Shown piece by piece: positions 3,989 to 29,930 of a stretch of DNA of 41,397 bases. The position numbers were made by a program, and so were the translations under genes. The notes under the pieces are model-generated. The model searched no databases and was not told the origin of the DNA. It worked only from the letters and a program-made list of their open reading frames with translations. How positions within the stretch are numbered: the stretch's first letter is position 1; every line of letters begins with the position of its first letter. This stretch comes from a virus: the IMG/VR virus record IMGVR_UViG_3300030329_004626, positions 1-41,397 of that record; one strand, 5' to 3'.

Positions 3989-4816
3989 ATGGAAAATAAC
4001 AACTCATATAATATATTAAGAAATGAACCATATAAAGGTGACTTAGATAAAAAAGGAAGATTTAGTTATATCCCCTGGGCAAACATTTGGGATAAAACAA
4101 AGAAAAACTTTCCCTATGTTAATCATAAGGTAAGAATGTTTACTGTGCAAATGGGAAACAACACTTTAGAACTTCCTTATTGCGTTTTACCAGACCATAC
4201 TGCATTGGTTATTGTAGATATTTCAGTAACAGATCATGAAGGTGATGAGCATGAATGTACAATGGAGCTTGCAGTTAGAGACCAAAGAAACAATGCAATT
4301 TCCAATCCAGATAGTGTTCAAGTAGCAAATACTATTCGTAGATGCCTTGCAAAAGGACTTTCTACATTGACTGGATACGGAATTGAATTATGGGCTGGTG
4401 AAGATATTGCAGACTTAGATTATACAAAACCTACTCATTTAGACGGCTCTCCTATTGTGCCAGGAAATGCAACAGCTAACCAATCAATTAAACTTGATGA
4501 ATTAATGAGAAACAGGAATATAGCTAAAGATGTTAAACAAAAACTTACAGATATAAAAAGTAACGGGTGGAATATTAGTGAAAATCATGCACAGATTTTA
4601 ATTAATGATGTTTCAGAAGGAATTCGAAACGCTAAAAGCCCAACCAGAACAGAAATTACAAAAGCTAAAAAACTTATTAAAGAAATTGACCCCGATAACA
4701 AACATCCAAAAAGAAAAGATTGGGATGCGTTTCTTGAGAACACAACTATAACAAGTGGAAAACTAAAAGCTTTTGTTGTCAGTCTAAACAACAAATACAA
4801 AGAAGGAGAACAATAA
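3989..4816 (+). CDS. Single-strand annealing protein, Sak3/DUF1071-like
   Basis: A 275-residue protein. The first 150 residues match the pattern of DUF1071 (Sak3-type) annealing proteins: an early FSYIPWANIWD segment, a beta-rich middle, then a conserved helix with VANTIRRCLAKGLS followed by GYGIELW. These proteins coat single-stranded DNA and anneal complementary strands in phage recombination and recombination-dependent replication. The C-terminal 120 residues are basic and helical and may contact partners. The stop overlaps the next ATG (TAATG), and the following genes are replication proteins, supporting the role. Confidence 0.7.
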   Translation: MENNNSYNILRNEPYKGDLDKKGRFSYIPWANIWDKTKKNFPYVNHKVRMFTVQMGNNTLELPYCVLPDHTALVIVDISVTDHEGDEHECTMELAVRDQRNNAISNPDSVQVANTIRRCLAKGLSTLTGYGIELWAGEDIADLDYTKPTHLDGSPIVPGNATANQSIKLDELMRNRNIAKDVKQKLTDIKSNGWNISENHAQILINDVSEGIRNAKSPTRTEITKAKKLIKEIDPDNKHPKRKDWDAFLENTTITSGKLKAFVVSLNNKYKEGEQ

Positions 4817-5430
4817 TGGGATTTAACGCAACTGTTAAACCAAACTACGACTACCCTGAGGGAGTTTATGTTGATAGGGTACAAGTAACCTCAATAGAAA
4901 ACGTTTTAAAAGATGATGATCAATTTGGAAACGATATTAATATTAAAATTGTTGGCACCACACCTGATAATCCAAACAATCAATACGATACCGTTATTTA
5001 TCTTGGTGGTAAACACGCAAAAGGGACAAACGGAATGGCAATAGGTTGGGGTTCTAAATATTCAAAACCACCTGTTGATAATTATGGTTCCAGAAGTATT
5101 GCGATTTTCTTGCAAACACTTGGACACAACCTTAGCGAAAATACATTAAATGAAGACTCTTCTTTTCTTAGTGAAGAATGTGTTCGTGACTGCATTGGCA
5201 GAAGCATATACATACTCCAATACGAAACTACAGAAGATAATCAAAACGGAAATCCTAAAAGAAGAACTTGGTGGAATTTTGCTAGTGAATCTGAAGGAAA
5301 AAAGAAATTGTATGAATTATGGAACAAGTCAAATAAACCTAAAATGTATCGTGCAAAACCAGATGAGAAACTTGCAAATATATTTGCCGATAAACCAATT
5401 GAAGGTGTAACTGAAATACCGGAGGTATAA
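4816..5430 (+). CDS. Replication-module protein, possible ssDNA-binding protein
   Basis: A 204-residue protein translated from AAGGAGAACAATAATG. The N-terminal 100 residues alternate beta-strand-like segments (VYVDRVQVTSI, INIKIVGTT), as an OB-fold would, followed by a helical Trp/Lys-rich region and a C-terminal tail with scattered acidic residues. Lying between an annealing protein and a primase-helicase, it could be the phage single-stranded DNA-binding protein. That reading rests on context and gross composition; I see no diagnostic SSB motif. Its TAA overlaps the next ATG. Confidence 0.5.
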   Translation: MGFNATVKPNYDYPEGVYVDRVQVTSIENVLKDDDQFGNDINIKIVGTTPDNPNNQYDTVIYLGGKHAKGTNGMAIGWGSKYSKPPVDNYGSRSIAIFLQTLGHNLSENTLNEDSSFLSEECVRDCIGRSIYILQYETTEDNQNGNPKRRTWWNFASESEGKKKLYELWNKSNKPKMYRAKPDEKLANIFADKPIEGVTEIPEV

Positions 5431-5741
5431 TGAAAATGCCACAAATAGCACACAATACAACGATTAATAAAGAAGCCCTTAATAGCGAAGAACTTATTTG
5501 CAGATATCTATCTCATGCAGTTCCTCATGGATCTATTATTGGATCTCATCATATTCAATTGGATTTACCAAGATGGATTGAGCAGCAATATGGACAAATG
5601 TTTAATCCAGATACATTGATGAGAAAATTCAGAGGGATTAAAAATACAAAGCAATTTATGCTGAGAAATGCAGGAGTTACTTTGGAAGAAGTGAATCAAG
5701 GAAGCAGAGAAAAGAATTGGAAAGTTCTGAACAATTTGTAG
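5430..5741 (+). CDS. Hypothetical protein, possible winged-helix
   Basis: A 103-residue product with GGAGG seven bases before the overlapping start. The centre (LPRWIEQQYGQMF, then DTLMRKFRGIKN) looks like a helix-turn-helix or winged helix with basic residues suited to DNA contact. Its end overlaps the start of the primase-helicase gene by 25 bases, so the two are probably coupled. A helicase-loading or origin-binding role would fit but is inference. Confidence 0.6.
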   Translation: MKMPQIAHNTTINKEALNSEELICRYLSHAVPHGSIIGSHHIQLDLPRWIEQQYGQMFNPDTLMRKFRGIKNTKQFMLRNAGVTLEEVNQGSREKNWKVLNNL

Positions 5742-7525
5742 AAATAGCTTCTGGTCATATTACCAATAGAGGTCGGGCAGATAAGATATCAAATCTGCCT
5801 AACCTTATTGGTAAACAAAACGACAAACACGAACTCTATCATAGTTGGTATGGATTTGATAAAGATCTTGATCGACACCTTGATGGTGTTAATAGGATTG
5901 GTACATATAAAGGTGTGTATTACGTAAATCAGATTATTTTGGATTTAGATTTAAAAAATCTATCTGAAAAAGAACTATTAGAAACAGTTCGTTTCTTTGT
6001 TAAAACAGAATTAATTGAAGATTTAGGAATAAAAGAAAATCATATTCAAGTCTGGTATAGTGGAACTGGATTTCACGTTGTGTTACCAGATTTATTTGGT
6101 TTTACCCCCTCTGTAAGTCTTCCTCTTTCTGTAAAAAGTACATTAATGGATGTGTTTCCTGATTGCGATAAAATCTATGATGGTGCAAGACTTATAAGGG
6201 CTCCATACAGCTACAATAAAAAATCGGGTTTATACAAAACACCGATCAGTTTACAAGAACTCTTTGCTTCGACTATGGATGATATTAAAAGAAAAGCTTC
6301 TACAATTCCTGACGAAATAAACCTTACTTATTTTCAATTTCATAAGACTGAACCTTATTTAAGAAAATATTTAAAGCTTTATACTGCAAAGATGTTAGAA
6401 AAAACTTCTGTTAAACGATCTACTTTTGATATTGATCCCACTACTGTTGTTACCTGCATGCAAAGTGTTCTTTCCAAACCACCTGTTCACGGTGAACGAA
6501 ATGAATCAATGATGAGATTAGCCGCATGGTTAAGAAGATCAGGAGTTCCTTATAATGTTGTCCAGGATACTTTAGAAAAATGGTCAGGAAATCACGAAGA
6601 AGCAAAGACGACTACTGATAGTGAATTTGAAAAAGGATATAATTATTGGTGCAACGATCATATTATGCACAAATATTGCGATCCTAAATGTATTCATTAT
6701 AAACGTAAAGATTATTCCATGGCAGTTGAAAATATGAAGACACTAGCTGAGAAATATAAAAAGTTTCTGAGTACAGGTATTTCTAAAAGTGCTTTCAACT
6801 TTAAAGATCTTTATGACTGGAACTTAGACTATTGGGTAATGCCCGGAGAATTAGTGATTTTATTAGGAGATACAGGAATGGGTAAATCTACTTATTTATC
6901 CAATTTAGCTGTAATGCTGAAGAGTCATAAAATACTATATGTGTCTATGGAAAACACATGGCATTTAACCTATAAGCGATTTACTCAAATTGCTCAACAA
7001 TACACGCAAAAAGAAACCAATAGATATCACAACGAATTAGATGATTTAACAAATCTTTACTCTTCGTTTGATCACATTAATGCAGTTCATATAAGACCAG
7101 AAATAAACAAACTGCAAGAAGAAGTAGCAAAAACAAATCCAGATATATTAATGATAGATCCTACGAATAAAATTCATGTTAAAAACATCCATAATGAATT
7201 TGATCGTATGAATGAAATTATAACCAAATTAAAAGATATTGCCGTTAATCAAGAATGTGTAGTCATTGCAGTTCATCATGTAAATAAAGAATCAGCAAAA
7301 ACAGGAGTAGTTGATATTAATTCCGCAAAAGGTTCTAGTACAGTTATTCAAGAAGCTGACAAAGTATGGACAATTAATGGAACACGAGTATATGGCACAA
7401 GAACTCTTGATAGTGGTAAGAATCGAGATGGAAAAGGAATCAGATTGAATTTTGAATTTGACAAAGAAAGAATGATTTTTAAACAAGTACCTCAAACATC
7501 TGAAGCGTTTGCTAAAGTATCATGA
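5717..7525 (+). CDS. Primase-polymerase fused to RecA-fold replicative helicase
   Basis: A 602-residue fusion. The N-terminal half has signs of the archaeo-eukaryotic primase (Prim-Pol) fold: a metal-binding DLD at residues 76-78 (ILDLDLK) and SGTGFH at 115-120. A Cys/His cluster (C312, C321, C325, H327) may bind zinc at the join. The C-terminal half is a DnaB/RecA-like ATPase with Walker A GDTGMGKS (384-391) and Walker B ILMID (D481), then an AVHHVNK segment typical of this fold. It would unwind DNA and prime or extend on the template at the fork. The start is probably TTG 5717 inside the preceding gene; no ATG lies near the beginning of the conserved region. Confidence 0.85.
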   Translation: MESSEQFVEIASGHITNRGRADKISNLPNLIGKQNDKHELYHSWYGFDKDLDRHLDGVNRIGTYKGVYYVNQIILDLDLKNLSEKELLETVRFFVKTELIEDLGIKENHIQVWYSGTGFHVVLPDLFGFTPSVSLPLSVKSTLMDVFPDCDKIYDGARLIRAPYSYNKKSGLYKTPISLQELFASTMDDIKRKASTIPDEINLTYFQFHKTEPYLRKYLKLYTAKMLEKTSVKRSTFDIDPTTVVTCMQSVLSKPPVHGERNESMMRLAAWLRRSGVPYNVVQDTLEKWSGNHEEAKTTTDSEFEKGYNYWCNDHIMHKYCDPKCIHYKRKDYSMAVENMKTLAEKYKKFLSTGISKSAFNFKDLYDWNLDYWVMPGELVILLGDTGMGKSTYLSNLAVMLKSHKILYVSMENTWHLTYKRFTQIAQQYTQKETNRYHNELDDLTNLYSSFDHINAVHIRPEINKLQEEVAKTNPDILMIDPTNKIHVKNIHNEFDRMNEIITKLKDIAVNQECVVIAVHHVNKESAKTGVVDINSAKGSSTVIQEADKVWTINGTRVYGTRTLDSGKNRDGKGIRLNFEFDKERMIFKQVPQTSEAFAKVS

Positions 7526-13022: not shown

Positions 13023-14129
13023 TTAAAAATCTTCTCTTATATAATATCCTTCATCATATACAGATCGTGGTCCAGGCTTTCTATATACTTTTTTGGCAGT
13101 ACCTTTAAACTCTAATGGTTTTAATAAAGCTTCTGCAAGACTTCTTTGTAAAAAAACAGGAGCTTCTGATAAATTAGATTTAACATCTTTTAAATAACTT
13201 AATAAAGATCTATTACGTGCAAAATCCCAATTATCATAATAATCTTCTTTATATACACCACCAAGATCCTTACTTCCTTTCATTTTTCTTTTTACATCAT
13301 AATTTCCAAATAATGAATGTAAACCTTCAGAATCTACTTCTCTAAAATAATCATCTGGATTTTTATAATGATAGTATTTTTTGCCATCTTCCATATGAGT
13401 CCCAAATTTATTCCAAATTTCATCTATAGGATTGTTTTTTACAAAATTATTAACAGTATACGCATATTGTTTTTTATCGCCATATATCTTTGTTCCATCA
13501 CCCATTACCTTTACTACTGGAGGGTTTTGTAGCCAAAATTTATTAGTCTGATATCTATGATATCCAGATGGGTCTAGTGCTTGACTGTATTTAAAATTTG
13601 GTTTACCTAATCCCAGTTTTGTTCTCCATGCAAACAACCTATCTTCTCCAAAAACTTGAGGTGCCCATTGTGGTATGTCATCTATAACAGATTCTTTGAA
13701 AACTTTTGGGTTAATTAATGCTCTTTTTATACCCCCCATTTTATTTTCGTATTTAAAAGGAGGAACATTATTTGCTATTAATCTACTTATTGGTGTACCA
13801 CCACTTACTGCATATCTCGCACCTTTTAAAGCCATATAAGGATCTGCACCAAATGATAAAGTTTCTCCAAACTTAGATTCAGGAGTTATAGATTCATAAT
13901 TACCACTTGGAAGTAGTCCAAATACAGTATCATCTGTTCCACGATATAATCCTTTTAATACTCCCCCAATACCTGTATCTGGAATTTTTCGACTAATTAA
14001 ATCAATTAAATTAGGTTTAGCAGTAGACATTTCTCCATAATAAGGATCATTACCTTTGTCTAAAACTATCTCAACTCTACTAGAAGAGGGTTCTTCTACA
14101 TTAAATCCTTTAAATCTATTCTGCGACAT
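13023..14129 (-). CDS. Probable virion-associated protein, 368 aa
   Basis: Last gene of the late operon; its start overlaps the end of the giant gene by 14 bases, so the two are coupled. The protein is rich in Tyr, Lys, Gly and Asp without a signal peptide; a Gly-rich stretch (IPDTGIGGVLKGLYRG) near residues 50-65 resembles short internal motifs of ejection proteins. No enzyme motif is recognised. Given the position behind three ejection-type genes, an internal virion protein is likely but unproven. Confidence 0.6.
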   Translation of the reverse strand: MSQNRFKGFNVEEPSSSRVEIVLDKGNDPYYGEMSTAKPNLIDLISRKIPDTGIGGVLKGLYRGTDDTVFGLLPSGNYESITPESKFGETLSFGADPYMALKGARYAVSGGTPISRLIANNVPPFKYENKMGGIKRALINPKVFKESVIDDIPQWAPQVFGEDRLFAWRTKLGLGKPNFKYSQALDPSGYHRYQTNKFWLQNPPVVKVMGDGTKIYGDKKQYAYTVNNFVKNNPIDEIWNKFGTHMEDGKKYYHYKNPDDYFREVDSEGLHSLFGNYDVKRKMKGSKDLGGVYKEDYYDNWDFARNRSLLSYLKDVKSNLSEAPVFLQRSLAEALLKPLEFKGTAKKVYRKPGPRSVYDEGYYIREDF

Positions 14130-17100
14130 TTTCTTCTTCCTTACGTGCTTTCTTCATTTTTTGAGCTAAGCGATGAATAGGTATTCCTGTCATTTCTTCT
14201 AACCACATTTCAGGTACTTCATATGTTCTATACATACTTCTTGCCAACCTACCAAAAGGCGCTAATGTCCAAGCTTGATAATTAAGAAATGGTTCCCAGT
14301 CATTATTAATAATTGCTTTTGTAGGTGCTAATACAAGCCGTAAAGATGGGCCTGTAACGGTAGATAATGGTGCGAGTGCAGGATGAGGCCATTGGTTAAA
14401 AAAAGCACGTTCTCGTTGTTTTTCATCACCAAATAACCAATCTGCAGTATCTTGCATATAGGACATGGGTGGTGGCAATGCAGAATCAAAAATAGAAGAA
14501 ACAAATATATTTGCCAATGCAAAAGCGAACATATCCAGCATCAAAACTCTTTGTAATCTTTTCCCAGGAATTGTATTTATATCAAACCCATAGGTTGCCG
14601 CTTTTTGGTATGCCAATCTTCTAAACCGAATTGAATTCCATGCAAAAGGCATAAAACGAGTTAATATTTTTCCTGTTGTAGTTCGAGAAAATGCTGGTCT
14701 TGCAGATGAATGATATAAAAACTGTGTTGCTTTAACCCCTTCAGTTGCCATTCTAAGCAAATATGGATTATCGTATTTTAAATTAGGAACAATGTCTTTC
14801 AGTATTTCGTAATTGGCTAAATAATGAGATAAAAAAGAATCTCTTCTTAACATACGTTCTGATTTTCTCATAAACCAAGCTCCACCATCGACAAACGCTT
14901 TGTTTAATCCATGTTTTTTTGCTATATCCATTAGAGATTGATCTGGCATATTATAATCTTTTTTAACTTCGCTTACAAAGTCTGATAAAAAGTTTTTTAC
15001 CTTTTTGCCTCGAAACCCTCTTTCTAAAGATGCTTCAGACACAATAAACGATTCCAAAGCTCCAGATTCTTCAGCGAATCTATTCAGCCACATATTTACA
15101 TTATCAGGGGTGATTTCTGTACCATCTTTTAATTTGCCACCTTTAAAAATATTGTATAAAAAAGCTTTGTCTTTTGTTCTGGTAAAATGCCGTAATCCAT
15201 TATTAGAAATAGTATTTACATTACCTCCTAACAAGTTACCTATAGCTGTTTTAGGGTGAGATAATAAAGAGATTAAAGACCACTTTGCTTCAAAAGCACC
15301 AATGTTTTTTGCTACTTGCATTAAAACTATTTTTCTGGCTTCAGGATCTTTTGGAAGATTATCCACTAAAGGTAGTTTAGGATTGGCTTTTCCACCTAGT
15401 TTAGTAGCAACACGTTCTAAAAACTTAGCAACTTGGTCATCACTTAAATGAAAATATGCAGTCTTTCTAATTTCTTTTAATCGTTTATCTTTTCTCAGAA
15501 TATCTTTTGCGTGTTTGTATTCATATAACTCTTCAGAAGTTGCTTTATCTGGTCTTTTTTCTATTCGTTCTATAAACTGTTTAGTGCGTGCTAATTGATC
15601 TTTATTTAAACCGATAACATCAGAAGAAAAAGAAGATGAGTATCCCATTACATCTCGTGCATACATCTTCATAAAGTTTTCCCAATCTTCTCTATCTTCT
15701 TTTGTATAAAGAACATTGTTTTTAGAAAACCTATTTATTGTATCGTGAGCAATTAAAGAAGTTAAATTTTTATAAAAAGATGCAATCCATTGTCCTGAGT
15801 ATTTTTCAGCTACTTCAAATTCTAAACTAAACCCAGGCATTGGCGTTTCTCCTCGTTCACGACCACTTCCAGGGCGATTGTTAAAGCCTACTTTTTCTAA
15901 AGAATTTCTTTCTGTTTTATTATTGTTTAACCACCGGATAGCGTGTTCTCCAGCTCCACCATCTTCAGAGGATCTTGATAAAAACGCTTTTTCAAATGCT
16001 ACTTCCTGTAATATAAGAATACGGTCTGCAAATTGTTCAGGTGTTAACACACCTTTTAATAATTCTGATACGCTGTCTTGTATATTTTTTGAAGTAATCC
16101 ATCTTTTCTTAATGTTGTACTTATCTGTAGACTCAACATTGCCATTAATTAAATCACGAGCATACCGCAACGCTTCATTTTTCAAAAGATACATTTGTTG
16201 ATCGATATGTTTTTTCACCTGATCTCTTCCTTTTTTGCTAGACCTATGATCCATCTGAGGCCAATAGAACTCTTCTACCTTTCCAATTCCTACATATCGT
16301 AAAGGATTGTATTCACCATCTTCTCTTCGTAAGGCTCGATTTCTTTCCCGAAATTTTTTAGCTTCTATTGAATCTCGACCTATATTTTCTTTTTTAGCCA
16401 GACGTTGTTCTAAAATAATTTCATATTGAATTCGATTTAATAAATCTACTGATAATGAAGTATTATTAATCAATCGTTCTACTATTCGTTGTTTACCAAA
16501 GGCGGCTGGTTTAAACAATTTATTTTGAATTCTTTCTATTTTTAATCTTCCACTTGGCGTGAACTCTACCAATTCGTCAATTACACCATACCTATTTTCT
16601 TTATCAATTCGATCCCATAATGATTCGCCAGTCTTTTTATCAATAGCAACTACCCATTTTTTATAAGTACTATCAAAAAAGTTTTTATGTTTTTCTGAAA
16701 TCCAATCCATTACTTGGGCTCCAGTTTTTTCAAAAGTTTTTCCTTCTTCTGTAATCTTGTATATTTTATTTTTTAACTCTTCGTAAAAGGGTCTGTTTTC
16801 TTCCCATAACTCATTATAAAATTTTCTACGACTTGTTTTTTCTGCTATATCCCCCATTGTTCCCACAGATTCTCTTTCTGCAAGCCGTTTGGAAATAGCT
16901 GCACGATGAAGTTTGCTAAATTCAGTAGTTCCATCTTCTAAATTTAAAATTTGCTCTCTCCAACCATAATACCTTTGTATATATTCTTGATTGTATTCTT
17001 TATCAATATTTTCAAAACCATATAATTGAGTAAAAGATTCACTTAAATAATTAAAAGTACTATACGGTAATCGAATATCTAAAAATCCAACTTTTCCTTT

Positions 17101-20100
17101 TTCATATTCTAAAGGTATAGTTCTTTTATATAACTGAGTTGCATCATACCGAAGTTGTTTTTCGCCTACTCTTTCCGGAAATAAATAATAATACATTTTT
17201 TTTACTCCCGGCTCTTTAGCCGTAGAAACTTTTATTCTTCGAATGTATTCCTGAAAGTTTCTTAAATCCATATAAGTAGCTTCTGAAATATTTTTTGCTT
17301 TTCCAAAAGCTTCAGTTTGGTAATTGGCAAACAGTTCTTCAATTCTAAAAGAAAACCCTTCTGGCATTGTGCGAAAGTCTTGTATTAGTTTATCTAAAAC
17401 TCTAGGTATATCTTCGGGTATTTTATCTTTAGGAATGTTTTCAATAGGCTTGTTTTGAAAAATATTATCAAACAAGCGTTCCAATACAATTTTTGCCTCT
17501 TGAGTTTTTTGAGATCCTGTAATGCCTTCTGTAGGTTTTATTTGCTCAGGAATCATTTGTTGTCCTGAAAATTCTTTCATTTTATTTAATACAGGACTGG
17601 AATAAACAACATTTACCATTTTGGCAAAACTTTGCATAAACTCTTTTTTTAAACGTTCAGGAACTTCTTTAGTTTCAAAGGCAAAACGGGTAAAGCTAGT
17701 CTTATTGTAAAACTTGCTCCAATCTGCAATGGTTTTTTCACCAAAATCAATAAATGCCTTATTGGCTTTTTCTGAAGGTTTTGCTTTTTCTTTTTCAATA
17801 TTTCTTTTTGCTAAAGATAATGTAGCTTGACTTGATCTGGCTTGAGGATAAATAGAACCCATCATATACCAATGGAAATAATCCAAAGCTTCTTGTCTAC
17901 TTACTCCTAAAGCATCTGCATCTTTTGCTATTTCTCTTTTAATCTCTTTAATACTTTTATTTACATCGTCCATAGCAAATTTTTGAGGTTCAAATGTTTT
18001 TCGTATCCCCTGTATTCTATCACGCCATTTTAATTTTGGAATAACTGCTCTTTCTGCCAATGTATATAAAAAGTCAAATGCCTGTTGTTCTGTTCCCCCT
18101 TTATCAATAATCTGATCTGCAATTGATTTACCTCTTTTTCCAAGAGTAATTGCACTATATAAATCGATCATATCATTTATTAACAATTTCGCTTCTGTTA
18201 TAGGATCGTGAGGAGTAATTAAACCATCTTTTTTAGCTTGATCAAACAATCGCTGATACCGTGGGTCTAAATTGGAATTTCTTTGCAAACCCTGTACCCG
18301 AAGATTGTTAATACTTATTTGATCTATAGGTCGATTGTTTTGCAATTCTGAATCAATTAAATCTTGAATTCTTAACTCCAATTCTTTACGATCTGTTTTC
18401 ATATAGAAAGGAGTAATAGAAAACTTTTTTCTACCAAAATAGTTTCTAATATCAGGAGATTTCCATTGTTCATTATATTGTTTAATTAAATTTCTAAACT
18501 TTTTATTTCCACGAATATATCGTTGGTTAATTGCACTACCTGACATTTGGTTGGCTAAATAAAACAAGGAATTCATGCGATATTCTGTAGAAGAAGCACT
18601 TTCAACCGCATCTTGTACTTCTTTAGCATTCCATTGTTTTCCTGTTTGCCAGTTTTTTCCATACAATTTACTGTTTACATTTACAAGGTCTCCATAAGAG
18701 GTATTGATCAAATCTTTGTATTTAAAATCTATTTTTTTGCCTTTATTATTCTTGGCTTTAATAGATGTAAATGCACTTTTTAATAACACCTCTCTCATAT
18801 CTAATGAGGGCATCATTTCCCAGTAATTTGAACTATCTGCTGTTCTACTAGAAGCTTCCCATGCCATTCTTCGAAACCCTCTAATTGAATCCAATTGGTT
18901 TTCATTGGTAATAAGCTCTACGGTTCCGTATTTATTTCCTTTATTATTTATTAAATCAAGGTTTACTTTCCCTTGTTTATTGCTAATAATATCTGCAGTT
19001 ACAAAGTTTAATACAGTTTTTGCATTAACAATTGCACCCATTCCCTCTTTTCCATTGTACGATGAAATTCCAGATTTACGTAATGCAAAAGGCATTATTT
19101 GAGATAATTTGCTTTTCATAAATTCAGGGGCTTCTGTAGTTCCAAAATCAGAGTTTAATTCTTTAGCTTTGTTTTCATACATTACCCATTCGTTTTTAAT
19201 CTTTACAGCAAGCTCGTTTGCATTTTTCTTAATATCTTTTTTGAATTCTTTAGGCAATCCCTGATATAGAAAAACTTTGTCTCCATCTACATCCATTCCA
19301 TCTAAATAAAAATGATCTTTAGGATGCAAATAAGCTCCATAATCTTTTTTTCCACTACTGTTTTCTATAAATCCATCAAAACGCAGTATTCTAGTTCCAC
19401 TCACAGCAGGAGAAGGAACTCTCATTACTGCAATTTCTAACATTTCTTCTATGTTATTTAATGTTTTTTGAATCGTTTTTTTATTGGCTTTTATCTTCGT
19501 AGAATCATATCTTTTTTTAACCGATTGATACTCAGCCCACAAATCTCCTAAAGTTTGATTTTTACCCCATTTTACGGGCATACCAGCCATATCTATTCCC
19601 AGTTTAAACGTTCCGTTTTTAACGGCTCCGTCTCTAACTTTGGTTACAGGATCATTACCCGCTCCCCAGACTTCTCCAGAATATTTCCATTCAGGATAAA
19701 GGTATTTATTTTTTCGATACCGCAAAACCATTGCATTGTATAGTTCTGGTTCAATCATTGTCACAATAGGGTCATAATTAGAATATTTAGACCATCGTTG
19801 TAATCGATTAACGTAATCTTCTAATTCAATTAAATGTTGCTCATCTCCAAACGCATCTGCACTTTCTTTAAATGCAGTTTGTTTGGTCATTCGCATTAAC
19901 AATCGTTTAAATAAAGGATGAGAAGGATTATTAACAAGATATACAAATTCAGCATCTCCTATGTCTCGAATACGAAACTTTTCAGGAATGGGAGTATTTG
20001 GATCGTTGGCTAAATCTCGAACTAATTGATTCGCTTCTTTAACGCCTTTAATATTTGGCTGAAACGCTGTTTCCATAAGCGAATTAAAACCTTTTTCACT

Positions 20101-23100
20101 TATTTGTAATTCATTAAGCAATACATGAAATTGTTTTTTAATCGTAAAGTTACCTTTGGAAGCTTTGGAGTTTTCAGCTACTCCGTAATCAATTCTTAAA
20201 TCTTCAAGTTTAATTGTTAAAACTTCAGGGTTTTCAATGGTTTTACTGTCATCTCCTAATTTTTTAAATTCATATTTTGTTGTACCATCTTTATTTTTTG
20301 AAGAAAGCCCGTGATATACTGTAGAGTTTTTAGGAAAAGCTTTGGCTGCACTCAACATTGCAATTCCTCTATTTGGTTTTTTTAAAGCTACATCATATTC
20401 TTTTTGAGACGGATGAAAACCACCTTTAAATAAAAACAATTCTCCGTCTATATAAGCAGAAATAGTAGGTTTTAACCTAGATGTTTCTGGAGAAAAGCCA
20501 TTTGCACGTAATAATTCATTGTAAAGTTCTGTAGGCAATACACCATATCCGTCAATTTCACTTAAATAAGGCTTTTCTTTACTTGCTGTTTTGCCGTCTT
20601 TTGTAGTTTTATAAGTTTCAATGGGGATTCCTTTAGAATGTGTTTTGTGATTTCCCCTGGGTTCATCATCGACCAACACAAATTCTATTTCTTTGTATTT
20701 TTTAATAATGTCTTGAGGAATTCCTTTACTGGCAATAATTGTTTCTCTTTTTACCCGATCAGGAGCATTTTTAAATTGTAATTTTGGTTCATACAAAAAA
20801 TTGGACATAATTTGTTTTTGCCAAATGTTTCTTGCTTGATTGTTTTTAGGATCTCCCCCACCGAATTCTTTTATCCAGTTTGTATAATCTTCAGCTAAAA
20901 ACAAACGTGCCATTGGATCTTCTTTTTGCAGTCTTTTAAGAAACCGACCATAGCCTTTTTTGGTTATTAATCCGTTACTATCTAAAGGAAGATTTGGATG
21001 ATATGGATATATCCGTTCAACTCCTTTATCTTTTTTGGGAATTTTTGCATATTTGTTTTCTTTATCTAATTGAATTGACAAATTAAGCCAGTCATTAGAT
21101 TTCATAACTTCAACAAATTTCTTTTGATCTTTATTATATGTTTTTCCATATAGATCTACAACATTATCTCCAACTTGAGTCGTTTTCAGTTCTTGAATTT
21201 TATAATTTGGAGAAAAGGCTTTAAAACCAAGATCATCAGAAGTTTTATCTTTAGTAGATAATTCTTTTATTTTTTTACCTTGCTTTAATAATTTATTAAT
21301 AGGCATTTCAAATATAACATCTGGGTTTTTTACACCAATCTGCTCTAGATTAAACTTTTGAAAAAGACCGTAATTTTCAAACTGTTCCTTTGTTAATACA
21401 TCTTCTATTCTTTTATAACCATCTTCTAGAGCAGCTAAGTAATTTTTTCTAAAATTTTCAGTCATTTGACCCGCAACGTCTTCTACCTCAAATATTTTAT
21501 ATCTTTTCCCGGCTATTTCCCATATATCATTTAATAAAGGTCTATCTTCACCGGAAACTCCCCATAAGGATTTCATTTTATTTTCAAATTCTTGTTGCTC
21601 GGGTGTTAATTTTTTTTGTTTAATTTTTCTAACGTTTAAATTTCTAAAATATATATTATCTGCACTTAAAGATTTGTTATCTGCTATTCTTTTCCCGCTT
21701 ATATCATGAGTTGAGCTAACTACTAAACGATTTCCAAAACGATCAAAATGAACCTGTGTATGCAATTCTTCTTTTATCATCCGATTGTAAACAGATCTCA
21801 TTTGCCTTTTGGTTTGTGGAGTGGCTATATATTCAGGATATGTATTATTTAACTCATTGAAAAAAGTTTCATACGATTCTTTTGTTTTTACAGATTTATT
21901 AAAAACAGATATAATATCATCCAGTATTTCTGCTCTTGCTTTGGGTTCTTTTTTAGAATAGGCTTCAGTACTTTCGATTTCTATTAGTACATTGCGAATA
22001 TGATTAGGGGCATCTAATTCCAGTTGATCTTCTACGGGTCTGTCTAAATTTTGAAGATCTCTTGCTTCTTTAGCTCCCATAGTAGTGTCTTTTTCGCCAG
22101 TAATTACATCATAAATAACATTAATATTGCCTTTTTTTATTTCTGCTTGTTGTTCTTTGGTTAGTTTATTTAAAACATCTTTTGATCGTTCACCAATAGG
22201 AGCTTTAGAACCATTAATACGATCTGTTATTTCAGAAGCAATGTTTCCAATTTGTATTCTTTGAAATTCAGCATCTACATCATTCATTGCCCGAACTTTT
22301 GCTAAATTTTCTTCTTCTTGAGATAATTTATCTTGTTTACGCTCTCTTAATAGTTCTTGTTCACGATCTTTAAATCTGGATTGTTTAAATCCTTCTAAAT
22401 ATCGATGTTGCATTAATAGAGATGCCGCAGTTGGATCTTGATAGTTCAGACCTAATTCTAATTGTTGAGGATTATAAAAACTAAATCTCTCTCCTATAGA
22501 ATTATTCCAATAATTTTTAACGTGTTCTTGGGATACAGGATGTAATTCTTTGAATTCCAGAGTTTCAAGCATTTCTCTTTCTTTTAAATGATGCCGTTTT
22601 CCATAAACATCATTTTCTGGATTGTAAAAAGAATCAATGTATTTTTTAGCTGATTTTATTTTTGCACTTGGATGCTTGTATCCAAAAAAACCACCTAATA
22701 AATACTCGTATAATTGAACAGAGGTAGGGGCATCTTGAGCAGTAGCAAGACCGCCTTGTAAGGCAGCACCAAGTCCGCCTCTTACTACTTTATTCCAAAT
22801 AAAATCTTCTGCCCCACTTCGAACACTTGGATTTGGATGTTTTAACATATTACCAAGATTTGTAAAATTTCCAATAGTACCAAATGCTCCACCAAAGATA
22901 GCACCATGGACATAAGAATTCATTATTTCATCTTTTCCACCCCACACACTGCTGATTGCAGAAGCTACTCCTAGTTCTTGAGCTGACTTTGCAATATCAG
23001 CATACACATTTCCCTTTTTTACATATTGATCTACATTTATTCCGGCTTTGGTTAAGCCTTTATAAATAGGAGTATTTATTTTATCCGCTAAATAAAAAGG

Positions 23101-23475
23101 AACCGATTTTGTTTGCGCTAAAAATTTTGCAGAAGTTTTTAAAGCTTCCGCTCCTGCTTTTTTTCCTAAAAACCCTAGTGGACCTGCAAGAATAGCTGGG
23201 GCAAATCCAATGAGATGCCCCATGCTGTGAGCAATTTGTCCAAATTCTGTTTTTGGATCTTCTGCCCATCCTAAGGTAGTAAAACCTTCACTAACACCTG
23301 ATACAAATTGATTAAGTAGGCTTTCTTGCTTGTCTTCCTCAACACTTACATTTCGGGTAAAAGGAACGTCAAAGTCTTTAGACGCTTTTTCTATTTCGTC
23401 TACAAGATCATCATCAAACAAATAAGGATTTTGATTGTAAACAGAAATATATCTCTGTAATTCATATGGATTCAT
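14116..23475 (-). CDS. Giant virion protein with two-barrel RNA polymerase core
   Basis: A 3119-residue protein. A hydrophobic segment lies at about 83-104 and another at about 2980-3000, suited to membrane insertion during ejection. Between residues 970 and 1560 motifs follow the order of QDE-1/YonO/crAss gp66-type RNA polymerases. DGYG (975-978) and a strand-turn with FKGG (K1017) match the first double-psi barrel and its substrate lysine. RVPSPAVSGTR and LHPKDHF lead into DVDGD (1395-1399), the Mg-binding Asp triad of the second barrel. GMGAIVNA (1478-1485) and ASSRTADSS (1541-1549) parallel RDR-family motifs downstream. The remaining two thirds is unrecognised. Its place among ejection proteins suggests it is packaged and injected to transcribe early genes. 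Assignment is by eye; alternative: a giant ejection protein with chance motifs. Confidence 0.7.
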   Translation of the reverse strand: MNPYELQRYISVYNQNPYLFDDDLVDEIEKASKDFDVPFTRNVSVEEDKQESLLNQFVSGVSEGFTTLGWAEDPKTEFGQIAHSMGHLIGFAPAILAGPLGFLGKKAGAEALKTSAKFLAQTKSVPFYLADKINTPIYKGLTKAGINVDQYVKKGNVYADIAKSAQELGVASAISSVWGGKDEIMNSYVHGAIFGGAFGTIGNFTNLGNMLKHPNPSVRSGAEDFIWNKVVRGGLGAALQGGLATAQDAPTSVQLYEYLLGGFFGYKHPSAKIKSAKKYIDSFYNPENDVYGKRHHLKEREMLETLEFKELHPVSQEHVKNYWNNSIGERFSFYNPQQLELGLNYQDPTAASLLMQHRYLEGFKQSRFKDREQELLRERKQDKLSQEEENLAKVRAMNDVDAEFQRIQIGNIASEITDRINGSKAPIGERSKDVLNKLTKEQQAEIKKGNINVIYDVITGEKDTTMGAKEARDLQNLDRPVEDQLELDAPNHIRNVLIEIESTEAYSKKEPKARAEILDDIISVFNKSVKTKESYETFFNELNNTYPEYIATPQTKRQMRSVYNRMIKEELHTQVHFDRFGNRLVVSSTHDISGKRIADNKSLSADNIYFRNLNVRKIKQKKLTPEQQEFENKMKSLWGVSGEDRPLLNDIWEIAGKRYKIFEVEDVAGQMTENFRKNYLAALEDGYKRIEDVLTKEQFENYGLFQKFNLEQIGVKNPDVIFEMPINKLLKQGKKIKELSTKDKTSDDLGFKAFSPNYKIQELKTTQVGDNVVDLYGKTYNKDQKKFVEVMKSNDWLNLSIQLDKENKYAKIPKKDKGVERIYPYHPNLPLDSNGLITKKGYGRFLKRLQKEDPMARLFLAEDYTNWIKEFGGGDPKNNQARNIWQKQIMSNFLYEPKLQFKNAPDRVKRETIIASKGIPQDIIKKYKEIEFVLVDDEPRGNHKTHSKGIPIETYKTTKDGKTASKEKPYLSEIDGYGVLPTELYNELLRANGFSPETSRLKPTISAYIDGELFLFKGGFHPSQKEYDVALKKPNRGIAMLSAAKAFPKNSTVYHGLSSKNKDGTTKYEFKKLGDDSKTIENPEVLTIKLEDLRIDYGVAENSKASKGNFTIKKQFHVLLNELQISEKGFNSLMETAFQPNIKGVKEANQLVRDLANDPNTPIPEKFRIRDIGDAEFVYLVNNPSHPLFKRLLMRMTKQTAFKESADAFGDEQHLIELEDYVNRLQRWSKYSNYDPIVTMIEPELYNAMVLRYRKNKYLYPEWKYSGEVWGAGNDPVTKVRDGAVKNGTFKLGIDMAGMPVKWGKNQTLGDLWAEYQSVKKRYDSTKIKANKKTIQKTLNNIEEMLEIAVMRVPSPAVSGTRILRFDGFIENSSGKKDYGAYLHPKDHFYLDGMDVDGDKVFLYQGLPKEFKKDIKKNANELAVKIKNEWVMYENKAKELNSDFGTTEAPEFMKSKLSQIMPFALRKSGISSYNGKEGMGAIVNAKTVLNFVTADIISNKQGKVNLDLINNKGNKYGTVELITNENQLDSIRGFRRMAWEASSRTADSSNYWEMMPSLDMREVLLKSAFTSIKAKNNKGKKIDFKYKDLINTSYGDLVNVNSKLYGKNWQTGKQWNAKEVQDAVESASSTEYRMNSLFYLANQMSGSAINQRYIRGNKKFRNLIKQYNEQWKSPDIRNYFGRKKFSITPFYMKTDRKELELRIQDLIDSELQNNRPIDQISINNLRVQGLQRNSNLDPRYQRLFDQAKKDGLITPHDPITEAKLLINDMIDLYSAITLGKRGKSIADQIIDKGGTEQQAFDFLYTLAERAVIPKLKWRDRIQGIRKTFEPQKFAMDDVNKSIKEIKREIAKDADALGVSRQEALDYFHWYMMGSIYPQARSSQATLSLAKRNIEKEKAKPSEKANKAFIDFGEKTIADWSKFYNKTSFTRFAFETKEVPERLKKEFMQSFAKMVNVVYSSPVLNKMKEFSGQQMIPEQIKPTEGITGSQKTQEAKIVLERLFDNIFQNKPIENIPKDKIPEDIPRVLDKLIQDFRTMPEGFSFRIEELFANYQTEAFGKAKNISEATYMDLRNFQEYIRRIKVSTAKEPGVKKMYYYLFPERVGEKQLRYDATQLYKRTIPLEYEKGKVGFLDIRLPYSTFNYLSESFTQLYGFENIDKEYNQEYIQRYYGWREQILNLEDGTTEFSKLHRAAISKRLAERESVGTMGDIAEKTSRRKFYNELWEENRPFYEELKNKIYKITEEGKTFEKTGAQVMDWISEKHKNFFDSTYKKWVVAIDKKTGESLWDRIDKENRYGVIDELVEFTPSGRLKIERIQNKLFKPAAFGKQRIVERLINNTSLSVDLLNRIQYEIILEQRLAKKENIGRDSIEAKKFRERNRALRREDGEYNPLRYVGIGKVEEFYWPQMDHRSSKKGRDQVKKHIDQQMYLLKNEALRYARDLINGNVESTDKYNIKKRWITSKNIQDSVSELLKGVLTPEQFADRILILQEVAFEKAFLSRSSEDGGAGEHAIRWLNNNKTERNSLEKVGFNNRPGSGRERGETPMPGFSLEFEVAEKYSGQWIASFYKNLTSLIAHDTINRFSKNNVLYTKEDREDWENFMKMYARDVMGYSSSFSSDVIGLNKDQLARTKQFIERIEKRPDKATSEELYEYKHAKDILRKDKRLKEIRKTAYFHLSDDQVAKFLERVATKLGGKANPKLPLVDNLPKDPEARKIVLMQVAKNIGAFEAKWSLISLLSHPKTAIGNLLGGNVNTISNNGLRHFTRTKDKAFLYNIFKGGKLKDGTEITPDNVNMWLNRFAEESGALESFIVSEASLERGFRGKKVKNFLSDFVSEVKKDYNMPDQSLMDIAKKHGLNKAFVDGGAWFMRKSERMLRRDSFLSHYLANYEILKDIVPNLKYDNPYLLRMATEGVKATQFLYHSSARPAFSRTTTGKILTRFMPFAWNSIRFRRLAYQKAATYGFDINTIPGKRLQRVLMLDMFAFALANIFVSSIFDSALPPPMSYMQDTADWLFGDEKQRERAFFNQWPHPALAPLSTVTGPSLRLVLAPTKAIINNDWEPFLNYQAWTLAPFGRLARSMYRTYEVPEMWLEEMTGIPIHRLAQKMKKARKEEENVAE

Positions 23476-25523: not shown

Positions 25524-25790
25524 TCAGCTTCCTATTTCTTTTGTTGTCATTGCTACTTTAATCCATCCTTCGTCAGTTCTTCCTTGAATTTCATAACTTC
25601 CATCAGCCAACTTTGCCAATCGAATATCTCCACTTTTTCCTGAAAAAGAATCTCTTTCTTCTGTTGTATTTCCACGGTTTACCGCATTAATTATTTCGTT
25701 TAAATCATCATATATCAATTGAATAGTACGATTAATCTGTACTGGAATTGCTTCATTTACCATTAATGGTCTTTTTTTTGTTAAACTCAT
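25524..25790 (-). CDS. Small structural-type protein, 88 aa
   Basis: Overlaps the upstream nozzle gene by four bases. An N-terminal helix (LIYDDLNEIINAVNRG) precedes a strand-rich end that reads like a small beta-sandwich (GDIRLAKLADGSYEIQGRT). Similar short proteins sit between tail and ejection genes in other podoviruses, but the family is not recognised. A tail or neck accessory role is inferred from position. Confidence 0.6.
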   Translation of the reverse strand: MSLTKKRPLMVNEAIPVQINRTIQLIYDDLNEIINAVNRGNTTEERDSFSGKSGDIRLAKLADGSYEIQGRTDEGWIKVAMTTKEIGS

Positions 25791-28700
25791 GATGTTTGCT
25801 CTGCATTTACTATCTTACGTCTATATACCAAACCTAAAGCATCAACGGTTCCTGTTTGACCCGATAAAAACCATTGAACATATTTACCGCTTTTTGTGTC
25901 TGTAACAAAATTGCTAAAAACACTTCCACTTGCACTACTGTTATCGGTTTCAGTTACGTTATTGCCATCTATTTGAACATATACGTGTGTTCCTAAAGTC
26001 CCACTTGGATTTCCCGTAACGCTAAAGTTATTAAACCGTTTAAATTGAGTATGTTGACCAAGGGTTAAATGTTTACTGTGCCAATCGAAAGATCTTTTAT
26101 TTACAGTATTTCGCATTAGGTTAAATATTTTTCCATCTACATTTGCATATACGTGTCCATTGTTTCCAGTAAAAAAGGCATATGGTACTGCTGTACTTTG
26201 AGATCCTTGATATACATAAAACAACCTCCATAAATCCCAACGAGACAACATAATGTTATAAGCCCATGTGTTGTATGTACCAGAAATAGATTTAAAAGTT
26301 ATTAAAAAACTTTGCAACTTTTGATGATATACAATTTTTGGATCATAGGTAAAATCAATGCTTTCCCAGCTCCAGGAACTATTATTCCGATTAATTGGAG
26401 TAGAAATCAATTTTACATCTTTTCCATTAAACAGATATGCACCGGTTGTATTCAAAATGCAAATACCAAAGTCTGTAACACAAATAGTATCTTGGCTAAT
26501 AGCTCCTACTCCTGTAATGGTATTTTCAACGTATAAATTGTTTGGTTCAATCTGATAAATATTGTTTTCATCAAATACAAAAATACGATTATTAAACGAA
26601 GTTATAGCCGTTGGATAAGTAGGCAATACCATAAAATCTCTTGCCCAATTAAACTGATCAAAATTATAAGGTCTGGATTTAAACAAATAATTAGAAGCAT
26701 TTGTAATGTCCTTATGATAACATCTAGCCACAAACAAATGACTATTTAATTGAGTAGATAAGCCATAATTAACAATAGTTTTATCTAATACTTCAGAAAT
26801 TCCTGTTCGAGCTTCATATGAGGCTCCATTTGTTTGAGAATGAAGATATTTGTTACTATAATAGCCTCCCCAGTCTGGTGCTACTGCATTATCAGATACA
26901 TTTGTCCAAGTAGAATCTAAATTTATTGTAGCTACATAACGATAAAAGCCAGTTGGAGCCAAAGCCCCACTTGCACCTTCTGCCATGTAAATAATAACGT
27001 CTGTGACCCTTTTTGAGACGTTGGTGGCATTATGTGCCTGTATATCTATTACAACTTCTTTCCCAGTTGAAGTAATTTTTGTAGCATCGCTTAATGGTGA
27101 TTCTTGATAACCGTCATACAGAAATGAAAATTTATAAAAGTATTCTTTTGTATTGGTGTGAATTCCGCTTGTAACTGCATTTTCAGATAATACTAACGAC
27201 ACATTACTTTCTAACCGAGTGGTAAAAGCACCAACAGAACTTACATTTATTTGAGACATCCACCTTCCAACTCCTGATCCTGCAAATACGTGAAGATCAA
27301 AATAAGAAGAATTGTTTAAAACAACAGGAACCCCTTTATTAATATCGTAATCATCATTTGGATCGCCTTCATCGGTTAAAGATCTAAAATGAGCATCTCC
27401 TCCAGATCCACCACCAGAATATGCAGTATCGTGATCGTAAGCAACCCATGAATAAATATCAGTTAAAGTAGCATCTGAAGCGTTTTTTACAGTTAGTACA
27501 TTTGCATTTCCAGAATAAGCAACTTTTAAAGCTCTTCCTGCAAGATTAATTCCTTCTGTTGCTCCTCCGCCTCCGTCTAAAGCGGCAAAATTACTCAAAT
27601 TTGTACTTTGTGTTTGATCGTATTTTACACTAAAAACACCAGTACTAATTTTAACAATATCTGAAGCATTGGCTAAATTCCGTATCCCGTATCCCCCTGC
27701 AGTTAAGTTATTTCCATCGTCATCGTAAAGCTCAATAAGAACTGCGCAATATTCATTAGATCCGTGTTTTGGGTCTATTAAACAAACAGAAGGAATAATT
27801 CCTCTTGCCTGATGTACATCTTCTGCTGGGTCTGTACCAAGTTCAAAATCCCCAGCACCAGTACCTCCACCATCTTGTGAATTAAAATTACGCTGATCTA
27901 ATGTAACTGTAGTTGTATCGGTAAACGTAGAAGTTGTTTTATTTAATAACCACGTTCTACTGTATAATATTTGAGGTTGACCAGTAATTCCTACTGCGCC
28001 TGAAAACCAAAGATAGCTTCCAATTTCAATCATATCAGATATCACAAAATAATCAGTGCTACCTCCATTACTATCGGGGCCTACGTATCCATATCCGTTA
28101 AAAACATTACTGCCTACAGAACATTGCAAAACTCCACTTGCCATTATTTGCAACGTAGATCTATTGACTTTATACCAAGTTCCAAGTGTTTCTGTTCCTG
28201 TAGGCGCAGAACTGGAGTCGTATCCTTTATTGGTCAGCGAAACAAGCCATAAATTATTATCTGAGGCTAATGCTATTGCGCTAAATTGAGGTAACGTAGT
28301 ACTACTAGCACTATCTGGAACAATTTGTTTTGCTTCTGTTAAACTGTAGTCACTAATTGCCATTTTGTAAATAATGTTTCCACCCCATTCAATTCCATAC
28401 ATATGGGTTCCATCGCTGACTACTTTATGAAAATCAGGTATAATAGTAGGGCTTTTTAACTCAGCATCATCTAATTGAATTCCACTTGGAGCAGATCCTC
28501 CAAATTGACCATGAGAAATTATTCCTGTCCATCGAGGAACATTTGCAGATCCTTTTCCCATACCAATGTGAATTTCTTTATTGTTTTTTTCCATTGCAGG
28601 CAATCCAGTATGGCTTTCTGCCGAAGAAGATAAATTAGCTTGTGTTGGCAAAGTAGATACATGATGAAAATCGTCTATTTTTTTTAATTTGTTATCGCTA

Positions 28701-29176
28701 TCATCAAAATAAACAATTCGATGTGTTCCATCGTCATTAAACATTGATAACCTATCTGCCCGTACTGTAGATGCGCTATATTGATAAACATTTGCTCCGG
28801 CACCTAAATTTCCTATAGAAGACCATTCATCTACATTTTCCAGTTTATTGCTGGCTTTTCCACTATAGGACAATATTTGCGGATTTCCTGTATCGGTAGT
28901 AAAGGCAATTTGACCAGAAGAAGCAAAAGAAGAAGCATCCGCTAGATCTACATGACTGCCTCCTGAATTTTCTCCTCCATCTGCAGTAGAACTTGTTCCA
29001 TAAGCACTTGCTACAGGATGATACGAATCATACGTAATCCCTTGTAAAACTCCTTGTTCTGCCATAGGATCAACATTTAAACTGTATACGGGTGCTTCTT
29101 CAGGAATATCCGTTTCCGAAGCACTAAATACAATTCCTGAATTGAATTGTTTTAATTCGTGTACTTGTTTAGGCAC
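25787..29176 (-). CDS. Large tail hub/nozzle-like protein, 1129 aa
   Basis: A long beta-rich protein without signal peptide. The first 50 residues (ending VYSLNVDPMAEQG) and the C-terminal 350 resemble tail nozzle or P22 gp10-like stabilization proteins, with propeller-type strands such as FNNRIFVFDENNIYQIEP and GICILNTTGAYLFNGKDV. The middle (about 200-700) is an inserted-looking Gly/Ser/Asp-rich beta region. It would close the DNA channel below the neck and anchor fibres. Overlaps the metallophosphatase gene by eight bases. Assignment from pattern and position. Confidence 0.6.
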   Translation of the reverse strand: MPKQVHELKQFNSGIVFSASETDIPEEAPVYSLNVDPMAEQGVLQGITYDSYHPVASAYGTSSTADGGENSGGSHVDLADASSFASSGQIAFTTDTGNPQILSYSGKASNKLENVDEWSSIGNLGAGANVYQYSASTVRADRLSMFNDDGTHRIVYFDDSDNKLKKIDDFHHVSTLPTQANLSSSAESHTGLPAMEKNNKEIHIGMGKGSANVPRWTGIISHGQFGGSAPSGIQLDDAELKSPTIIPDFHKVVSDGTHMYGIEWGGNIIYKMAISDYSLTEAKQIVPDSASSTTLPQFSAIALASDNNLWLVSLTNKGYDSSSAPTGTETLGTWYKVNRSTLQIMASGVLQCSVGSNVFNGYGYVGPDSNGGSTDYFVISDMIEIGSYLWFSGAVGITGQPQILYSRTWLLNKTTSTFTDTTTVTLDQRNFNSQDGGGTGAGDFELGTDPAEDVHQARGIIPSVCLIDPKHGSNEYCAVLIELYDDDGNNLTAGGYGIRNLANASDIVKISTGVFSVKYDQTQSTNLSNFAALDGGGGATEGINLAGRALKVAYSGNANVLTVKNASDATLTDIYSWVAYDHDTAYSGGGSGGDAHFRSLTDEGDPNDDYDINKGVPVVLNNSSYFDLHVFAGSGVGRWMSQINVSSVGAFTTRLESNVSLVLSENAVTSGIHTNTKEYFYKFSFLYDGYQESPLSDATKITSTGKEVVIDIQAHNATNVSKRVTDVIIYMAEGASGALAPTGFYRYVATINLDSTWTNVSDNAVAPDWGGYYSNKYLHSQTNGASYEARTGISEVLDKTIVNYGLSTQLNSHLFVARCYHKDITNASNYLFKSRPYNFDQFNWARDFMVLPTYPTAITSFNNRIFVFDENNIYQIEPNNLYVENTITGVGAISQDTICVTDFGICILNTTGAYLFNGKDVKLISTPINRNNSSWSWESIDFTYDPKIVYHQKLQSFLITFKSISGTYNTWAYNIMLSRWDLWRLFYVYQGSQSTAVPYAFFTGNNGHVYANVDGKIFNLMRNTVNKRSFDWHSKHLTLGQHTQFKRFNNFSVTGNPSGTLGTHVYVQIDGNNVTETDNSSASGSVFSNFVTDTKSGKYVQWFLSGQTGTVDALGLVYRRKIVNAEQTS

Positions 29177-29930
29177 GTATTATTTTTCCTCCATACGAAG
29201 TAACTCCATTTACAATATCCAAGACCACAAGGTTAAACATTCCATTAGAAAACACATCTACAATACCCACATTGTGAGTCCAGTTAGTAGGTCTTCCTTT
29301 TAAGTATGATTTAGTCATATCAGTTAAGCATCCCATTGAATATGCCATGTGCGGTCCAGTAATATGGGTGATGACGGCTTTTTGGCTGTCGTGGGTGTGA
29401 CCATAGATGATGTTGCATCCCATTTGTAAGGCGTGAGTTCTTGCATGGGCAACTCCCATGTAGTGTCCTCCATGGTAAGCGTATAATTTGCTTCCGAACA
29501 CTTTAAAAACTTCGCCATACGGAAACCATTTATATCCACGCTCGTCAAATCGAAAAGCTTTTCTGGATCCGTAATGCTCAAGGTATGGGTTTTCTTCGAC
29601 AAAGTTGTCAAACCATATTTCGTGGTTTCCTTGCGCAAATTGTTTTTTCTTGCACCCCACCTTGTCCAAAACTTCATCAATTCGATCCAACCCTTCGTTG
29701 CCTTGTTTAATCTCTTTTTCAATGTATGGAAGTTGATACTCCAAAGGTGGACGTCTTTTCTTCCTCCATTGCCAATGGGAAACAGATTCACCATCAATCG
29801 TATCTCCTAATAATAAAAAGGCAGTAGGTTTTATTTCTGTAACTACTTTTAATGCACATTGTAATGCCTTTTCATCGTGATTAGGAAAATGAATATCGGG
29901 AAAAACAACTACTCTTTCTTTTATTACCAT
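29169..29930 (-). CDS. Calcineurin-like metallophosphatase
   Basis: A 253-residue protein with the full metallophosphoesterase motif set: PDIH (D12, H14), GDTID (D43), GNHE (101-104), a His in YHGGH and GHTHD near residue 175. Family members hydrolyse phosphomono- or diesters with two metal ions; substrates range from nucleotides to phosphoproteins and RNA or DNA ends. It is unusual in a late block between endolysin and tail hub. No signal peptide, so it acts in the cytoplasm or, if packaged, in the virion. Substrate cannot be told from the sequence. Confidence 0.85.
   Translation of the reverse strand: MVIKERVVVFPDIHFPNHDEKALQCALKVVTEIKPTAFLLLGDTIDGESVSHWQWRKKRRPPLEYQLPYIEKEIKQGNEGLDRIDEVLDKVGCKKKQFAQGNHEIWFDNFVEENPYLEHYGSRKAFRFDERGYKWFPYGEVFKVFGSKLYAYHGGHYMGVAHARTHALQMGCNIIYGHTHDSQKAVITHITGPHMAYSMGCLTDMTKSYLKGRPTNWTHNVGIVDVFSNGMFNLVVLDIVNGVTSYGGKIIRA

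Follow-up and report, generated by a model that had tools for sequence, protein, structure and literature searches.

A predicted two-barrel RNA polymerase within a giant late protein of a small integrase-bearing phage, probably carried in the virion

The giant gene and its features

The IMG/VR virus record IMGVR_UViG_3300030329_004626 comprises 45,779 bases of a genome of about 46 kb, and 41,397 of these bases (the window) were analysed here. The minus strand of the window encodes a giant late protein of 3119 amino acids, in which an initial annotation, made by eye, had placed a single-chain RNA polymerase (RNAP) built on two double-psi beta-barrels (DPBB) that might be packaged in the particle and injected. 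The features of this gene are as follows, with residues numbered along the 3119-residue protein.

14116..23475, minus strand: giant late gene with the predicted two-barrel RNAP, 3119 amino acids (open reading frame and full-length homologues)
22576..23475, minus strand: conserved N-terminal region, residues 1-300, with hydrophobic or glycine-rich segments 85-103 and 184-202 (conservation and hydropathy); possibly a membrane or ejection part
18511..20838, minus strand: polymerase core, residues ~880-1655 (AlphaFold model of residues 880-1700 and PDB matches to two-barrel RNAPs)
20170..20553, minus strand: first double-psi-barrel region (DPBB-B, beta-like), residues 975-1102, with invariant D975-G976, K1002 and K1017 (model strand pattern and invariance; boundaries estimated from secondary structure)
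20470-20472, minus strand: K1002, also invariant (22 core homologues)
20425..20427, minus strand: K1017, proposed DPBB-B active-site lysine (invariant, 22 core homologues)
19177..19680, minus strand: second double-psi-barrel region (DPBB-A, beta'-like), residues ~1266-1433 (model strands and the alignment of beta'-type subunits)
19414..19422, minus strand: RVP motif, R1352-P1354, counterpart of YRIP in gp66 of crAss phage (invariant; hhalign pairing with YRIP)
19279..19293, minus strand: putative metal-binding catalytic loop DVDGD, with D1395, D1397 and D1399 (invariant; hhalign pairing with DFDID of gp66 and DFDGD of P23-45 gp96)
18979..19092, minus strand: predicted bridge helix, residues 1462-1499, a single helix of 38 residues that contains GMGAIVNA (model residues 583-620 by DSSP)
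18832..18846, minus strand: invariant RTADS, residues 1544-1548, past the bridge helix, where the trigger loop would be expected (full-length set; presumed role)
14119..15378, minus strand: C-terminal residues 2700-3119, the most conserved region of the protein, with hydrophobic segment 2977-2995 (alignment and hydropathy)

The motifs of the initial annotation, namely DGYG at 975, FKGG at 1016 (containing K1017), RVP at 1352, LHP at 1383, DVDGD at 1395-1399, GMGAIVNA at 1478 and ASSRTADSS at 1541, were all found at the residues originally assigned to them. The interval given for the enzyme, 17900-20560, was slightly displaced, with the core extending over approximately 18511-20838.

Conservation among relatives

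Iterated searches recovered full-length homologues of 2995-3682 amino acids in more than 20 viral contigs of IMG/VR, with identities of 50-65% in the first rounds and about 35% later. In an alignment of 22 core sequences reaching down to ~35% identity, the invariant residues include D975-G976, K1002-P1003, K1017, R1352-V-P1354, G1360-T-R1362, D1387-H1388, D1392-G1393 and D1395-V-D-G-D1399. Among these, K1002, K1017, R1352, V1353, P1354, D1392, G1393 and D1395-D1399 are also invariant across 21 full-length proteins. The polymerase assignment depended on conservation of DVDGD and K1017, and neither varies in any aligned core homologue. The RxP motif is equally stable, while two other elements of the proposed series are not, as LHP is replaced by MHP, NPE, MHQ or MRG, and the second glycine of DGYG by leucine, alanine, isoleucine or valine.

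Along the full-length alignment there are three conserved islands, comprising residues 1-300, the core (~780-1600) and residues 2700-3119, with the C-terminal ~400 residues sharing ~50-84% identity among relatives. Within the core, conservation is maximal at residues 1381-1500, which include the catalytic loop and the bridge helix. Across five pairs, the core has a ratio of nonsynonymous to synonymous substitution rates of 0.09-0.17, indicating purifying selection on the gene.

The whole protein has no sequence match in Pfam, PHROG or the PDB, nor do alignments of the family, and the C-terminal region 2700-3119 matched no Pfam family. Searches of 50,697 phage records (INPHARED) by tblastn with the core and the C-terminus likewise gave no match.

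Predicted structure

Residues 880-1700 were modelled with AlphaFold2 without templates (model m4f9733324b09). The model built on 22 sequences has a predicted local distance difference test score (pLDDT) of 81 and a predicted template-modelling (TM) score of 0.80, and supersedes an earlier model from 10 sequences (pLDDT 60), for which the virion RNAP of phage phi14:2 (gp66) was the sole PDB match under E 0.001. In a Foldseek comparison of the newer model with the PDB, the top match was again the RNAP of the crAss phage phi14:2 (E 5e-8), followed by QDE-1 (E 4e-5) and then by RNAP beta' chains. There were 26 matches at E<=0.001, and the 50 matches listed (to E 1.7e-3) are all RNAPs, including RNAP large subunits, as structural realignment (VIA) also found for every one of them. 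By realignment, the highest Z-scores are to QDE-1 (~15 over 419-485 residues, and up to 15.1, over 485) and to RDR2 (13-14, with maize RDR2 at 14.3), followed by P32 gp64 (12.9), P74 gp62 (12.8), P23-45 gp96 (11.1) and gp66 (10.2 over 556 residues).

The single-chain enzymes QDE-1, RDR2, gp64, gp96 and gp66 align with the model from its start to residue ~774, while the cellular beta'-type large subunits align mainly to the second half, model residues ~361-765. These spans suggest the expected order, with the beta-like barrel first and the beta'-like barrel second. Furthermore, the 38-residue helix 1462-1499 comes after the catalytic barrel, at the place expected of a bridge helix, which identifies the GMGAIVNA within it as the probable bridge-helix motif; RTADS would then occupy the position expected of the trigger loop. 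The paired barrels on which the initial annotation relied are thus borne out, as single-chain two-barrel RNAPs match almost the entire length of the model, and residues ~880-1655 almost certainly adopt this fold, judging from the prediction and its structural matches.

Several predicted viral proteins in BFVD are structurally closer still (best E 2e-29, TM-score 0.67, 15% identity), suggesting that such polymerases are probably common in uncultured phages and merely unannotated.

Comparison with known RNA polymerases

The closest PDB structure, the virion RNAP of phi14:2, is called gp66 in the literature, and is 6vr4 in the PDB and Phi14:2_gp077 in KC821624. Like gp66, the window protein is a single chain with two predicted barrels, a DxDxD loop, an upstream RxP and a bridge helix with G-x-G-x-x-x-N (KSGVGITAN in gp66, GMGAIVNA here), and both are encoded alongside giant structural proteins. 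However, the two share only ~10% identity, without significant sequence similarity, and the loop is DVDGD here and DFDID in gp66. In addition, unlike phi14:2, which is a ~100-kb member of the Crassvirales, this phage has a ~46-kb genome with an integrase and a P22-type portal. Membership of the Crassvirales was considered and rejected, as the window proteins have no tblastn match to the structural region of phi14:2 (positions 50001-100000) and the portal has no crAss match; the portal matches those of Vibrio podoviruses weakly.

At the sequence level the similarities are weak: hhalign of the family profile with one built from 11 crAss RNAPs paired RVP...DVDGD with YRIP...DFDID (P 0.026, probability 1.9%), compared with P 0.32 and 0.41 for two unrelated giant phi14:2 proteins used as controls. 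Against the single sequences of gp66, gp96 and YonO, no hhalign score was significant, with the gp96 match, itself non-significant, placing DVDGD on the DFDGD of gp96. YonO of SPbeta is also a phage single-chain RNAP, in whose sequence the same order, DG-x-G, K-G, R-x-P and DxDGD, can be read by eye, but it is a stand-alone protein of 839 amino acids.

The crAss-like enzyme holds as a phage precedent, but is not the sole one, the tape-measure-fused enzyme of P23-45 being another (PMC10770324). P23-45 gp96 is a two-barrel RNAP fused within a giant protein that is injected as a virion component. Unlike the present phage, which appears short-tailed and has its RNAP in residues 880-1655, P23-45 has a long tail, and its RNAP is N-terminal in a tape measure with a metallopeptidase domain. 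No metallopeptidase family appeared among Pfam and PHROG matches to the rest of the 3119-residue protein, and no second RNAP was recognised here, whereas P23-45 has gp64 besides gp96. With no metallopeptidase domain and the P22-like portal of a short-tailed phage, assignment to the gp96 type of tape-measure RNAP was set aside.

QDE-1 and RDR2 share two barrels in one chain, the same order and a bridge helix with the model, but they are cellular eukaryotic enzymes acting on RNA and DNA templates, and no sequence similarity to them was detected. In function, the N4-type virion RNAP of the Schitoviridae is comparable, being described as a giant protein (~3500 amino acids) that is packaged and leaves the particle along with other proteins so as to initiate infection (PMC12633501, PMC5512222), as is proposed here. 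The N4 enzyme is T7-like, with an unrelated fold, and thus a functional analogue only. A search with PF00940 (T7-like RNAP) found no match in G000, and as the control search was also silent, this is uninformative; the structural matches of the model are to the two-barrel class.

Proposed function and alternatives

The favoured interpretation, with a probability of roughly 0.76, is a packaged and injected single-chain DNA-dependent RNAP with two double-psi barrels that would transcribe the early genes of the phage. D1395, D1397 and D1399 on the second barrel would hold the catalytic Mg2+, facing K1002 and K1017 on the first barrel, with helix 1462-1499 acting as the bridge helix. The gene would be expressed late, together with the virion genes, and a polymerase whose gene lies only among late genes must arrive with the particle if it is to serve early ones. 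The protein would be packaged, probably in the head or ejection core, and enter the cell with the first DNA, aided by its hydrophobic N- and C-terminal regions. It may then start transcription of the oppositely oriented early strand, with its recombination, primase/helicase and regulatory genes, before or without host RNAP. Packaging and injection are the best reading in view of this late-gene argument, the great length of the protein, the hydrophobic segments conserved at either end (85-103 and 2977-2995) and the precedents of P23-45 and crAss phages. P23-45 gp96 is a virion component that binds pre-early genes, and its proposed role is to transcribe these during DNA entry (PMC10770324), and the crAss RNAP is stated to be translocated with the DNA and to transcribe early genes (PMC7886860). 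The fold proposed in the initial annotation was accordingly correct, and the function probably so.

Several observations weigh against this interpretation. Sequence-only similarity to known RNAPs is not significant by tblastn, PDB sequence search or hhalign. Global TM-scores are low, at 0.38 for gp66 and 0.37 for QDE-1, indicating that the domain arrangement differs from theirs, and AlphaFold was trained on the PDB, two-barrel RNAPs included. The predicted placement of K1002 and K1017 opposite DVDGD derives from a whole-domain alignment. Finally, prophage scans of genome collections with core and C-terminal profiles gave candidates, none of which was a confirmed relative.

Among the alternatives, an active two-barrel RNAP that is made late for late genes and is not packaged, as for P23-45 gp64, is unlikely. 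The non-virion enzymes P23-45 gp64 and P74 gp62 do score slightly above virion gp96 in the realignment, but gp96 lacks a clamp, which lowers its score, and gp64 is a stand-alone protein of ~590 amino acids. Here, in contrast, the polymerase is the middle of a ~3000-residue protein whose hydrophobic ends are conserved and whose gene lies within the structural operon, an architecture typical of injected proteins. It is less likely again that the fold has been kept while polymerase activity was lost, leaving a domain that guides DNA or plays a structural role in the ejection machinery. Such a loss would fit the distance in sequence from known RNAPs and the N- and C-terminal parts being conserved as much as the core or more, but whereas most of the core varies, no core homologue departs from the triad, either lysine or RxP, and core conservation peaks around the catalytic loop and bridge helix.

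The top Z-scores of QDE-1 and RDR2 could point instead to a polymerase that copies RNA or makes primers, serving to evade defence or to prime replication rather than for early transcription. This is improbable, since the best Foldseek match is the DNA-dependent crAss RNAP, which is structurally near QDE-1 itself (PMC10770324), and the phage has its own primase/helicase with nothing to suggest an RNA stage. Chance motifs in an unrelated structural protein are hardly credible. In favour of chance, shuffling the 3119-residue protein yields DxDGD alone in 3.5% of cases, and no sequence match is significant; the loose ordered series DG..KG..RxP..DxDGD occurs in 0.16%, a figure that serves as a guide only, as the pattern was picked post hoc. 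Conservation is the stronger test of the motifs, and their invariance, together with structural matches exclusively to two-barrel RNAPs among those listed, already contradicts a chance origin.

Single-chain two-barrel virion RNAPs are already known, so the favoured injected RNAP is not a new kind of machine. What appears new is a very divergent family in small integrase-bearing phages with a P22-type portal, in which the RNAP lies mid-protein, although the survey in PMC10770324 may already contain members. It is reasonably likely that this is an undescribed virion RNAP family, widespread in such podoviruses, with the two-barrel RNAP at the middle of an ejection protein, through which a temperate phage brings its own polymerase and controls early transcription before host RNAP acts, possibly including the lysis-lysogeny decision. 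A temperate lifestyle combined with a virion RNAP has some precedent, as epsilon crAss-like phages are proposed to be temperate (PMC11054128), and N4-like RNAPs are placed in prophages in the 2017 survey of polyvalent proteins, whose section on primases and RNAPs covers N4-like virion RNAPs only (PMC5512222).

In the literature compared, experimental evidence for two-barrel virion RNAPs comes from crAss-like phages and from the P23-45 group of Thermus phages, besides the multisubunit enzymes of jumbo phages. A divergent and compact family of this kind in temperate podoviruses of ~46 kb would widen the range of phages carrying a cell-type polymerase, and would give the single-chain clade, to which the RNA-interference polymerases belong, an additional deep branch. 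It would also offer a small system for the coupling of genome entry to transcription and for host-independent early transcription in a temperate phage, and gives a name to a family missed by Pfam, PHROGs and PDB sequence searches.

Genome context

The genes that place the polymerase within the phage genome are the following.

39080..41248, minus strand: P22-like portal protein (PF16510, E 7e-52; phrog_156)
29169..29930, minus strand: metallophosphoesterase (phrog_221, PF00149)
25787..29176, minus strand: 1129-residue late protein (g1129), syntenic partner without a family, candidate second ejection protein (library scans, synteny)
10953-11849 and 11869-12714, minus strand: two tandem tyrosine integrases directly downstream of the polymerase gene (PF00589, phrog_1, synteny)
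3989..7525, plus strand: Sak annealing protein and primase/helicase of the early strand (family matches, synteny)

The minus strand also encodes the major head protein, a tail spike, an endolysin and large uncharacterised late proteins, and its late series ends with the polymerase gene, a 368-amino-acid gene and the two integrases. Sak, the primase/helicase and other early genes lie on the plus strand, and a repressor-like gene on the minus strand. The P22-like portal points to a short-tailed phage and, with the tyrosine integrases and the repressor-like gene, agrees with the temperate podovirus proposed initially. The neighbours g1129, g281 and g392, none of which has a family, may be the ejection proteins they were labelled as. 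The order endolysin, metallophosphoesterase, large protein, polymerase and integrase, opposite the primase/helicase strand, recurs in about 20 contigs, indicating a coherent group of integrase-bearing short-tailed phages.

Within this group, the metallophosphoesterase keeps ~79-90% identity even between members whose polymerases share only ~33%, a degree of conservation unusual in a phage gene; phi14:2 also has a metallophosphoesterase in its structural region. The two tandem integrases are diverged, against a single integrase in most relatives, and may represent a recent gain or a two-recombinase switch. In two relatives, a tRNA-Gly(gcc) gene lies beside the integrase (L003, 20764-20837; L013, 18110-18183), possibly marking the attachment site, and no such gene is present in the window.

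A repeat search of the early region for a promoter motif gave only short, chance-like families, and sigma-70-like sites do not exceed shuffles (53 versus 68.5), which is uninformative as to who transcribes the early genes. A near-perfect 22-nucleotide inverted repeat (86% complementary, with a 42-nucleotide spacer) is located at 1008-1093, between the first plus-strand open reading frame and the repressor-like gene.

An intergenic RNA-like element

On the early strand, between the primase/helicase and small genes, there is an intergenic element of ~90 nucleotides (8275-8364, plus strand) that is probably a structured RNA and reaches the gathering threshold of no Rfam family. A near-invariant ACAGYGAATTAACRYCTAYGC is enclosed by a closing stem of 10 pairs (GGGAAATAG...CTATTTCCC), several of which show compensatory changes. 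The same element is found in L002, L014, L016, L029, L030, L031 and L050, and in the contigs L062, L063, L065, L067, L070, L073 and L075, and a pattern scan located it also in contigs without detected relatives of the genes of this phage group.

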